Both the position numbers and the translations under genes were made by a program. Below, one piece after another: positions 1-7,174 of a DNA stretch of 64,000 nucleotides; within the stretch, counting starts at the first letter, position 1, and every line of letters starts with the position of its first letter. Source of the DNA: Halorubrum sp. 2020YC2. GTDB taxonomy: Archaea; Halobacteriota; Halobacteria; Halobacteriales; Haloferacaceae. Under the pieces are notes generated by a model. That model did not search any database. It was not told the origin of the DNA and was given only the letters and a program-made list of their open reading frames with translations. The stretch is from contig NZ_CP076019.1 of NCBI RefSeq assembly GCF_018623055.1, positions 186,001 to 250,000 of the forward strand. Reading direction: 5' to 3'.

Positions 1-999
1 CTGGACGCCCGTCATGATCGCCATGACGCGCACCTTCCCCTTGTACTCCTCTTGGATGCGGGCGCCCCAGATCACGTTGGCGCTCGCCTCCAGCCGCTCG
101 GTGATGTTGTTCGCGATCCCCTCGGCCTCCTTCAGCGTGAGGTCCGGGCCGCCAGTGATGTGGACGAGTCCGCCCGAGGCGCCGCGGTAGTCCACGTCGA
201 GCAGCGGGTGGTTCATCGCGTCGTTGACCACCTCTTGGGTCTTGTTCTTGTCTTGCGTCTCGCCGACGAGCATGACCGCGACGCCGCCCTGGTCCATGAT
301 CGTCGACATGTCGGCGTAGTCGAGGTTGATGAGGCTCGGCTGGGTGATCGTCTCCGAGATCCCCTTGACCGTCTCCGCGATGATCTGGTCCATCACGGAG
401 AACGCCTTCCCGATCGGCAGGTTCGGGACGTAATCGAGGAGCCGGTTGTTGTCGAGGACGATGATCGAGTCGGCCTCGTTGCGGAGGGTCTCTAACCCCT
501 CCTCGGCTTTCACCGTGCGGGCGCGCTCGACGTTGAACGGCGTCGAGACCATCCCGACCACGATGGCGCCCTGCTCTTTGGCGATCTTCGAGACGACCGG
601 CGCCGCGCCGGTGCCCGTGCCGCCGCCCATGCCGGCGGTGACGAAGACGAGGTCGGCGTCACCGAGCACCTCCTTTATCGTGCCCTGAGCCATCTCGGTG
701 GCGCGCTCGCCCATCTTGGGGTCGCCGCCGGCGCCGAGCCCCTGCGTGAGCGACTTGCCCACGAGGATCTTGGTGTCGGCCTCGATCATCTTGAGGTGCT
801 GTTTGTCCGTGTTGATGGCGACGGTGTCGGCGCCGTCGACGCCGATGTTGTACAGCCGGTTGACCGTGTTGTTCCCGGCGCCGCCGGCGCCGACGATGAC
901 GATCCGGGGGTCCCCGAACTCGTCGTCGTCCATGTCGACGTCCATGTCGCGCTTCTCCGCTTCCGCGTTGTCAAGGGCGTCCTGAACGAGATCTTGCAT
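1..999 (-). CDS. ftsZ2: Cell division protein FtsZ2 (3' end outside window)
   Basis: Tubulin-like GTPase that polymerises at mid-cell and drives haloarchaeal constriction. The minus strand translates from ATG at 997-999 and stays open to position 1, so about 333 residues are present and the C-terminus lies outside. The nucleotide-binding start has GAGGAGNN near residue 38, the tubulin signature [10 protein letters not shown] lies near residue 125, and the T7-loop region follows. The FtsZ2 rather than FtsZ1 assignment rests on the [20 protein letters not shown]-type N-terminus and on the cdrS neighbour, which is the known haloarchaeal arrangement. Only 4 bases separate it from cdrS, so the two are probably co-transcribed from the promoter near 1330. 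Confidence 0.96.
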
Positions 1000-1003
1000 C
1001 AGT

Positions 1004-1183
1004 TTACACCTTCGCCCAGTTGCGGTTGCGGCCGCGCTCGTCGCGGTCGCCGTCCTGTTCGTTCAACATGTCGCGGACGGCCGACCGGATCGCCTCGCTC
1101 CGGTTCGGGAACTCGCCCGTCTCCACCATCTGTTCGACCTCGTCGATCTGCTGTTTCGGGATTCGTAGTGTCACACGCTCCAT
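1004..1183 (-). CDS. cdrS: CdrS, short ribbon-helix-helix cell division regulator
   Basis: A 59-residue ribbon-helix-helix protein: the beta strand is [12 protein letters not shown] and the helices are [23 protein letters not shown] start at ATG 1181-1183 because it gives a compact RHH fold. The open frame continues upstream to 1261, but that part has no RHH homology and covers the operator region. CdrS in Halobacterium and Haloferax is known to control ftsZ2 expression and cell division, and its gene lies directly upstream of ftsZ2, as here. The C-terminal tail (residues 43-59) is charged and likely disordered. Confidence 0.92.
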
Positions 1184-1398
1184 TGGTATTCCCCCGGTAA
1201 GACGGCGAACACGCGACGCGTGTGTCTTACAGTCCGGAACCGCCCGAATGCGGAGCGACACCCCGCGCCGGACGTCCGCTGTAAGACGACCGTCTTACGC
1301 AGTTGAAGTCATCGAGCCTACTAATATAAATCTACCGGTGGTTGTAAGACAATTCGCGACCCGTTGCCTCTCCGACGGGTCACGGCGTCAGACACCGG
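1184..1398 (-). promoter_or_regulatory. cdrS-ftsZ2 promoter with repeated GTAAGACG operators
   Basis: On the minus strand a TATA-like TTTATATT occupies about 1324-1331, placing transcription start near 1300 and leaving a leader of about 110 bases before cdrS. The octamer GTAAGACG/CGTCTTAC, or one-base variants, occurs at 1197-1204, 1223-1230, 1281-1288, 1291-1298 and 1344-1351. The two copies at 1281-1298 form a perfect palindrome with a 2-base centre, at the expected start site. This spacing suits a dimeric RHH repressor. CdrL is known to bind upstream of cdrS in other haloarchaea, so CdrL is the best candidate ligand, but that is inference. Confidence 0.75.
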
Positions 1399-2007
1399 TC
1401 ACCGGTCGTTCAACACGTCCGCAGCGGGGGTTCGGCGCCCGCAGCCGGGGCAGAACGCCCAGTCCGTCCGGATCTCGTCGCCGCACTCGCAGAACGCCCT
1501 GTGGGACTGCTTTTCCCCGCAGTTCGGGCAGTACACGTGGTCTGACGGCACGTTTTCGCCACATCCGCCGCAGACGTTCGCTCGCGTTTGCGCGCTCGGG
1601 CTCCCGTCCGTCTTACGCGTGTCCGGCTCCGGAGCGCCGGCCGTCTCGCGCGTCGCGCCGACGTCCGCCTCCGACTCGTCGAATTCGGCACTCGGAGCGT
1701 CGAGCGTGACGTTTACGTTGATGTCGCCGGCGCTTCCGGGCGACCGCGTCGGCGTCGCGGCGCCGCCCGTCGGACCCAACCGCTCGTCGAGGGCGGCGTC
1801 GAGCCGCTCCGCGATCAGCTCGTCGACCCGCTCCGCGAGGGCGTCGTCGACGCTCTCGGCGGGCGCGTCGGACGCGTCCGACGCGGCGGGGTCGTCCCCG
1901 TCGAGGTACGTCCGCAGCGCCTTCCGCATCACCTCGCTCTTCGAGGCGTCACACGCTTCCAGCCGGTCGACGAGCCCGTCGTCCGCCCGGAAGGTGATCT
2001 TGCTCAT
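1399..2007 (-). CDS. cdrL: CdrL, long ribbon-helix-helix regulator with zinc ribbons
   Basis: 202 residues. Residues 1-35 form a ribbon-helix-helix domain (SKITFRADDGLVDRLEACD, then SKSEVMRKALRTYL). A low-complexity Asp/Glu/Ala linker follows. The C-terminal part carries paired CxxC zinc-ribbon motifs: CGGCGENV, CPNCGEKQ, CECGDEI and CPGCGRR. ATG 2005-2007 starts exactly at the RHH strand. CdrL in Halobacterium is the long partner of CdrS and binds the cdrS promoter. Here 215 bases containing repeated GTAAGACG boxes separate it from cdrS. One further CGTCTTAC lies inside this gene at 1609-1616 and may be chance. Confidence 0.9.
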   Translation of the reverse strand: MSKITFRADDGLVDRLEACDASKSEVMRKALRTYLDGDDPAASDASDAPAESVDDALAERVDELIAERLDAALDERLGPTGGAATPTRSPGSAGDINVNVTLDAPSAEFDESEADVGATRETAGAPEPDTRKTDGSPSAQTRANVCGGCGENVPSDHVYCPNCGEKQSHRAFCECGDEIRTDWAFCPGCGRRTPAADVLNDR

Positions 2008-6201: not shown

Positions 6202-7174
6202 GGAGGGCGGTGACCGGGGGTCGAGCGCCGACGCCGACGGCGGCGTCCCCGACCTCGACCTGACGAGCGAGCGCGACGGCGCGGACCCGTTCGGCGGCGG
6301 CTCGTCGTCCGACGACGACCCGGACTCGACCGCCGACTCCGGTCCGGAGGTGGCCGGCGTCTCACCGCCCGACGAGACCGACGACGACGAGGTCGAGCCG
6401 GTCGAGCTCCTCGTCCAACTCGCGGAGGAGGGCGAGATCGAGCCGTGGGACATCGACATCGTACAGGTGACGGACACCTTCTTAGAGAAGCTCGACGAGA
6501 CGGACCTCCGGACGACCGGACGGGCGCTGTTCTACGCCAGCGTCTTACTCCGGATGAAGAGCGACGGCATGCTGGCGGACGACGACGACGAGGAGCCGGA
6601 GCCGGAGCCGTGGGAGGTCGCGATGGAGGGCGGCGCGCCCGACCCGGCCGCCGACGGGTTCGACCCGGTCGACAAGCTGGAAGAAGAGATCGACCGCCGG
6701 CTCGACCGCAAGAACACCCGCGGGTCGCCGGAGACGCTCGACGAACTGGTCCGCGAGCTGCGCGAGGCCGAGCGCGGCTCGTGGTGGAAGGAGTCCCGCG
6801 AGTACGACACCGCGGAGTCGCCGCACGGCCACGCCCGCGGCACGCAGACGCTCGACTACCACGCCGGCGACGAGTTCCGGCAGGACGGGGAGCCGACCGC
6901 GGGCGACGCGACCGACCGCACCCACGACGAGGACATCGAGGAGGTGATCGTGGAGATCGACAACGCCCTCCGGAGCCACTTCGATCGGGGGCGCACGGAG
7001 GTGCTGTTCGCGGAGATCGAGACCGCGGGCGGCCGCCCGTTCATGACGTACCTCGCGCTGCTTTTCATGGCGCACCGCGGCTCGGTCCGACTCCAGCAGG
7101 ACGACCTGTTCGGCGACCTGTGGGTGAAAGACCCGGCGGCGATGACCGGCGAGTCGGAAGCGATCGCGGACTAG
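6194..7174 (+). CDS. scpA: Segregation and condensation protein A (kleisin)
   Basis: 326 residues. After an acidic N-terminal extension of about 55 residues comes the ScpA domain with its typical opening, VELLVQLAEEGEIEPWDIDI, then helical segments (TGRALFYASVLLRMKSD) and a C-terminal winged-helix part (FMTYLALLFMAHRGSVRLQQ) that contacts the SMC head. It bridges the SMC heads. ATG at 6194 overlaps the smc stop. The gene is followed within 46 bases by structured repeat element 1. Confidence 0.95.
   Translation: MTEEGGDRGSSADADGGVPDLDLTSERDGADPFGGGSSSDDDPDSTADSGPEVAGVSPPDETDDDEVEPVELLVQLAEEGEIEPWDIDIVQVTDTFLEKLDETDLRTTGRALFYASVLLRMKSDGMLADDDDEEPEPEPWEVAMEGGAPDPAADGFDPVDKLEEEIDRRLDRKNTRGSPETLDELVRELREAERGSWWKESREYDTAESPHGHARGTQTLDYHAGDEFRQDGEPTAGDATDRTHDEDIEEVIVEIDNALRSHFDRGRTEVLFAEIETAGGRPFMTYLALLFMAHRGSVRLQQDDLFGDLWVKDPAAMTGESEAIAD

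Follow-up and report, generated by a model that had tools for sequence, protein, structure and literature searches.

Gene organization and box cluster at the cdrS-ftsZ2 promoter

Three genes lie near the start of the window, which is the whole stretch of 64,000 nucleotides of Halorubrum sp. 2020YC2 DNA that was analyzed. They follow the order cdrL, cdrS, ftsZ2, all on the minus strand. The main features are as follows, with positions counted from the first letter of the window.

1399 to 2007, minus strand: cdrL, with N-terminal RHH (KITFR strand), linker, and C-terminal double zinc ribbon
1609 to 1616, minus strand: box inside the cdrL linker, codons CGT-AAG-ACG (Arg-Lys-Thr)
1344 to 1351, plus strand: box 1, GTAAGACA, reading TGTCTTAC on the cdrS strand
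1322 to 1330, minus strand: TATA-like element TTTATATTA of the cdrS-ftsZ2 promoter
1291 to 1298, minus strand: box 2, GTAAGACG, first arm of the palindrome on the cdrS strand
1281 to 1288, plus strand: box 3, second arm of the palindrome, reading CGTCTTAC on the cdrS strand
1184 to 1300, minus strand: cdrS leader RNA, strongly structured, start predicted
1223 to 1230, minus strand: box 4, GTAAGACA, in the transcribed leader
1197 to 1204, plus strand: box 5, near the cdrS start codon, reading CGTCTTAC on the cdrS strand
1188 to 1195, minus strand: GGGGGAAT, found conserved between box 5 and the cdrS ATG when loci were compared
1004 to 1183, minus strand: cdrS, 59-aa RHH protein (RVTLR strand; NF058555 TransRegCdrSHalo, E 5.9e-36; PF01402)
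1 to 999, minus strand: ftsZ2, running off the window (TIGR00065, E 8.5e-117)

The CdrL domains are PF24252 (CdrL_M), PF12773, and PF01402, and the protein was matched by its profile in its own genome at E 6.9e-75. The nearest named CdrS, from H. tebenquichense, is 100% identical. The RVTLR strand of CdrS and the KITFR strand of CdrL are nearly identical, and their residues are the supposed DNA contacts by analogy with the RHH family. An AlphaFold model of CdrL was of low confidence (pLDDT 60, pTM 0.24). A DUF7518 coiled-coil-like protein is encoded at 2167-2601, just before smc and divergent from cdrL.

The gap between cdrL and cdrS is 215 bp long and holds five copies of GTAAGAC/GTCTTAC within 155 bp (1197-1351). 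The initial annotation of this DNA had reported five half-sites in about this distance, flanked on both sides by genes for RHH proteins, and both observations were reproduced. It had also described the repeated word as an octamer. The repeats are real, but the eighth base varies, being G in three boxes (GTAAGACG) and A in two (GTAAGACA); because the boxes at 1223 and 1344 end in A, the word common to all five is the heptamer GTAAGAC. Similarly, the pair at 1281-1298, GTAAGACGACCGTCTTAC, had been called a perfect palindrome. Its two arms of 8 bp are exact matches, but they enclose an AC that is not self-complementary. The two heptamers of this pair are separated by 4 bp, which gives a pitch of 11 bp.

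The centre of the TATA-like element lies 29 bp before the palindrome, and from this spacing the cdrS transcription start is predicted at about 1300. The proposed location of the palindrome at the predicted start therefore holds, as does that of a further site just upstream of the TATA box: box 1 lies upstream of the BRE/TATA region, 52 bp before the palindrome. A strong cdrS promoter has been reported from dRNA-seq in Haloferax (PMC8406309). A word of the GGGGAA type, as found at 1188-1195, recurs in the loops of leader hairpins in some genera (L025, L028, L029, L030) and is not a canonical ribosome-binding site.

The 3.06-Mb genome contains 37 copies of the octamer GTAAGACR, which leads to an expectation of about 0.002 copies per 155 bp against the 5 observed. 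The octamer with at most one mismatch is not enriched across the 64-kb window (36 copies vs 51 expected), and the exceptional feature is the cluster rather than the overall frequency of the word. Another box at 6541-6548, within a coding sequence downstream of smc, was treated as a chance occurrence.

Conservation in Halobacteria

When 30 loci of the same family were compared, the boxes stood out from diverged surroundings. A search for the word upstream of cdrS in other haloarchaea had been proposed as a check, and the outcome was positive throughout the class. The inverted pair GTAAGAC-N-GTCTTAC was found in 93 of 99 genomes of the family, in 172 of 195 genomes of the order with a spacer of 3-6 bp, and in 190 of 194 genomes of class Halobacteria, representing 64 of 65 genera, with a spacer of 1-6 bp. 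Nearly always, a genome contains exactly one copy. The reversed control pattern was rare in the family, order, and class samples, appearing in a few genomes only, and allowing two mismatches added only a few extra pair sites per genome. The pair first seemed to be missing from one family (f14), but this was rejected as an artefact of the spacer limit initially applied; the heptamers are present there at a distance of 2-3 bp.

The pair is present in 137 of 147 unique cdrS loci, and the other ten retain at least one exact arm. In the fetched loci, which include Haloferax as a carrier of the operator, the pair sits at the predicted cdrS start site, with cdrS downstream and, in most loci, cdrL upstream. 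The geometry is also conserved. The heptamer spacer is 4 bp in 117 of the 137 palindrome loci and 5 bp in 17, and the TATA centre precedes the first base of the palindrome by 29 bp in 111. An exact upstream box is found in 110 of these loci, in 77 of them as GTCTTAC at -52, and its orientation varies between families. Boxes 4 and 5 are exact in 107 and 124 loci, respectively, and their orientation is invariant. The hairpins that flank the boxes vary between loci, whereas the boxes are constant.

A sixth box, absent from the initial annotation, lies inside cdrL, about 318 bp upstream of the palindrome. Of the 84 cdrL genes in which the Arg-Lys-Thr motif was detected, 81 encode it as CGT-AAG-ACR (ACG or ACA), even though CGT accounts for just 18% of the Arg codons of cdrL. 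Codon choice of this kind reflects nucleotide-level selection on the box in addition to selection on the protein, and supports a distal site that acts at the level of DNA. The orientation bias of boxes in cdrL (100 forward vs 2 reverse) may stem from the codons.

Structure of the leader RNA

The initial annotation also made no mention of structure in the leader. Compared with dinucleotide shuffles, the fold of the cdrS leader has a mean z of -3.5, and the segment from box 3 to box 4 reaches -5.5, against -0.4 and -0.6 in controls. With the boxes left out, the stretch that separates box 3 from box 4 still had a z of -2.2. In the predicted fold, box 4 pairs with box 3, and boxes 3-4 and 4-5 form stem arms. 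Compensatory changes beside the boxes amounted to 53 cells vs 35.9 in shuffles (0 of 500 shuffles), under a control that does not remove shared ancestry. Consensus folds of equal-length leader segments returned the outer stem only, in the three largest length classes, and the inner hairpins thus rest on single-sequence energies. No Rfam family scored above its gathering score for the cdrS leader.

Post-transcriptional control of the cdrS-ftsZ2 operon has been proposed (PMC8303175), and an additional RNA role for the transcribed boxes is possible. Inverted boxes, however, pair in RNA by necessity, and it does not follow from their pairing that the primary function is in RNA.

Loci without CdrL

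In Halobacterium salinarum, ChIP of CdrL-FLAG gave the cdrS-ftsZ2 promoter as the sole reproducible peak (PMC7439475). In Haloferax volcanii, ChIP of CdrS gave 18 sites, and the cdrS promoter was not among them (PMC8406309). Every one of the 157 near-complete genomes in the order sample has CdrS. A profile search with a cut-off of E 1e-6, in which true CdrLs score 1e-26 or better, detected no CdrL in eight near-complete haloarchaeal genomes (G016, G040, G058, G101, G109, G122, G134, G189). These genomes run counter to a published claim, according to which CdrL is encoded by all Halobacteria.

The palindrome is kept in all eight of them, which makes it unlikely that CdrL is the only reader. Seven of the loci were read (L020, L023, L033, L067, L070, L073, L085; G134 was searched only), and other genes occupy the place of cdrL. 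Box 5 is intact in all seven. Loci without CdrL have box 4 in 1 of 7 cases and loci with CdrL in 98 of 121 (Fisher p 0.0005); for box 1, with at most one mismatch, the counts are 4 of 7 vs 116 of 121 (p 0.005). These values come from a small sample, with three of the seven loci from one genus, and from related genomes that are not independent. On a plain reading of this distribution, the palindrome and box 5 would have a CdrL-independent reader, most simply CdrS, and boxes 1 and 4 would depend more on CdrL.

CdrS targets and methanogen relatives

The genes ftsZ1 and dacZ are CdrS ChIP targets in Haloferax volcanii (PMC8406309). Sites resembling GTCNGAC-N4-GTCNGAC were found about 60-67 bp before the start codons of these genes in Haloferax, Halorubrum, and relatives. 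The ftsZ1 sites have 1-2 mismatches in 3 of 3 regions; over 23 ftsZ1 and dacZ regions, the mean was 3.8 mismatches vs 5.9 in shuffles, and around half of the 20 genomes have a weak dacZ site or none. Their inverted 7-4-7 geometry, with GAC/GTC inner halves, is the same as at the cdrS promoter. The bases differ, however: position 3 of the heptamer is C at ftsZ1 and dacZ (GTCNGAC, as read from these regions) and A at the cdrS promoter. A binding code for the RHH regulators of division, as suggested in the initial annotation, is strongly supported by the 11-bp pitch, which is common to the ftsZ1/dacZ sites and to the methanogen cdrS arrays described below. The suggestion needs refinement, however: GTAAGAC is found at the cdrS promoter and GTCNGAC at the CdrS ChIP targets examined. 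The difference suggests how two paralogous regulators split their targets.

A site resembling GTCAGAC-N4-GTCTCAC also occurs in several Halorubrum genomes (L238 near 1056; L239, L240, L242). It precedes, by about 60 bp, a gene that belongs to no known family (at least 327 aa in L238) and is a candidate CdrS target. Separately, GTAAGACCAGCGTATTAC (L241 near 1043) lies directly upstream of an RHH-ParE toxin-antitoxin pair.

Methanogen relatives in the same phylum but outside Halobacteria contain cdrS; full-length CdrL was not found in ten methanogen genomes by the CdrL profile search. Upstream of 20 methanogen cdrS genes (L206-L225), GTAAGAC was not found and GTCTTAC occurred once. The same leaders contain 52 boxes of the wider pattern vs 2 expected, and 78 of 87 GTCNGAC near-boxes fall into one 11-bp register per locus. 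The register is the best one of each locus, so that the excess over the chance share of 1 in 11 arises partly by construction. Such a register fits the needs that tandem RHH dimers would have along one face of the DNA. About ten of the 52 boxes already carry A at position 3 (GTATGAC, GTCATAC), which makes the step to GTAAGAC a small one. These arrays point to CdrS self-feedback as the older arrangement, and autoregulation by CdrS is likely to be the ancestral state, preceding the haloarchaea.

Function of the boxes and their readers

The boxes probably constitute a dedicated operator for RHH proteins of the CdrS/CdrL family, controlling cdrS-ftsZ2. One heptamer would hold one RHH dimer, and the inverted pair with its 11-bp pitch over the start site would hold two cooperating dimers, as in operators of the Arc/MetJ type. 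Dimers bound there may hinder initiation, which would result in negative or homeostatic control of cdrS-ftsZ2; repression is suggested by the position of the operator over the start site. Box 1, the leader boxes, and the cdrL box may add cooperativity or looping. Activation from box 1 is possible as well, since it lies about 47 bp upstream of the predicted start, in the manner of the CdrS sites at ftsZ1 and dacZ. Published genetics are mixed on the sign of regulation. Deletion of cdrS in Halobacterium lowers ftsZ2 activation (PMC7439475), CdrS overexpression in Haloferax alters FtsZ2 little (about 0.7-fold), and the published cdrL deletion carried second-site mutations that precluded interpretation.

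The operator would be read by CdrL and also by CdrS, the latter being the likely ancestral reader. A core that does not need CdrL would consist of the palindrome and box 5; boxes 1 and 4 would rely more on CdrL. The chance that both proteins read the boxes is put slightly below even, and CdrS acting alone is improbable; the published CdrL ChIP supports CdrL as a reader. Alternatively, CdrL may be the sole reader, GTAAGAC being a CdrL code that diverged from the GTCNGAC of CdrS when CdrL arose in Halobacteria. The single CdrL peak in Halobacterium, matched by one site per genome nearly everywhere, agrees with this, as do the omission of the cdrS promoter from the CdrS list in Haloferax, the difference at position 3, the near absence of the exact word in methanogens without cdrL, and the scarcity of box 4 where CdrL is missing. 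The persistence of the operator in eight genomes without a CdrL match, with box 5 intact at every such locus read, makes this alternative unlikely, although it deserves serious consideration. The survival of the palindrome without CdrL might also indicate a different haloarchaeal factor, such as an antitoxin-like RHH protein or an HTH protein, and other RHH loci do use similar words, GTAAGACCAGCGTATTAC among them. Such a factor would have to be class-wide and devoted to the cdrS promoter, a description that CdrS and CdrL fit, and it would leave the CdrL peak at this promoter to be accounted for; its probability is small.

A primary role in RNA, with boxes 2-5 as stem-loop arms that govern translation, processing, or stability of the cdrS-ftsZ2 mRNA, would agree with the stability of the leader fold, the compensatory changes beside the boxes, the proposed post-transcriptional regulation, and the orientation of boxes 2-5, which alternates in every case. 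However, box 1 and the cdrL box lie outside the predicted transcript, box 1 occurs in both orientations, covariation was never seen within the 7-bp arms, and the 11-bp phasing of the methanogen boxes is a signature of DNA. Pairing is given by any inverted boxes, the covariation control leaves shared ancestry in, and Rfam returned no match, so that RNA as the primary function is quite unlikely. Chance clustering, or core-promoter sequence without a regulator, might be suspected because the one-mismatch octamer is not enriched in the window. Comparative data refute chance clustering, given the genome count of GTAAGACR and one conserved site per genome throughout the class, with boxes both upstream of TATA and in the leader; the probability left to either form is negligible.

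The dedicated RHH operator may be part of a broader scheme, in which GTAAGAC would serve in three registers: as a start-site operator for two RHH paralogues, as a distal operator in cdrL, and as arms of the leader RNA. These would derive from an ancestral 11-bp CdrS array of the kind found in methanogens, and CdrS feedback and CdrL would together determine the dosage of division genes. In this full form the scheme is speculative and rather doubtful.

Relation to known operators

Arc, MetJ, CopG, and omega bind tandem RHH operators, in which short boxes lie about one helical turn apart. The cdrS-ftsZ2 boxes are alike in this respect. Unlike the operators of these proteins and of NikR, they combine a 7-bp box and an 11-bp pitch with an archaeal start site and with extra boxes in the leader and in the upstream gene. 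The half-site of the E. coli NikR operator, GTATGA-N16-TCATAC (PMC7055735), is similar to the GTATGAC boxes seen in cdrS leaders of methanogens, and CdrS shows a weak match to NikR structures; NikR, however, has a nickel domain, and none is found here. In Sulfolobales, aCcr1 is an RHH repressor of cdvA, as cited in PMC7617429, and likewise represents RHH control of an archaeal division gene. It belongs to another clade and acts on another target and division machinery, and the likeness is drawn from its description in that source.

RHH operators as a kind, and the cdrS-ftsZ2 promoter as a CdrL target, are already known. The region bound by CdrL in Halobacterium salinarum (Darnell et al. 2020, PMC7439475) is the same promoter, and the single operator matches the single reproducible peak; that paper names no motif in its main text, and the operator described here is also present in genomes without detectable CdrL. 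The literature searched, which left out preprints and many subscription papers, yielded no published motif for this promoter, and a search with the heptamer and haloarchaeal names gave no paper containing the heptamer among the matches listed. Nor was any mention found in that literature of the binding word or its uniqueness across the class, of the cdrL box, of the link with the CdrS code, or of the methanogen arrays.

The timing of division-tubulin expression in archaea is a wider question, in which CdrL and CdrS are known regulators. GTAAGAC is likely the docking code for these small division regulators of archaea, and the boxes supply the exact bases to mutate. Haloarchaea that carry the operator without detectable CdrL are natural test species.

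One haloarchaeon, Haloferacaceae archaeon XH8, has two cdrS loci (L132, L137) near opposite ends of one chromosome record. The second of these has a truncated cdrL and is possibly a duplication at the assembly ends.
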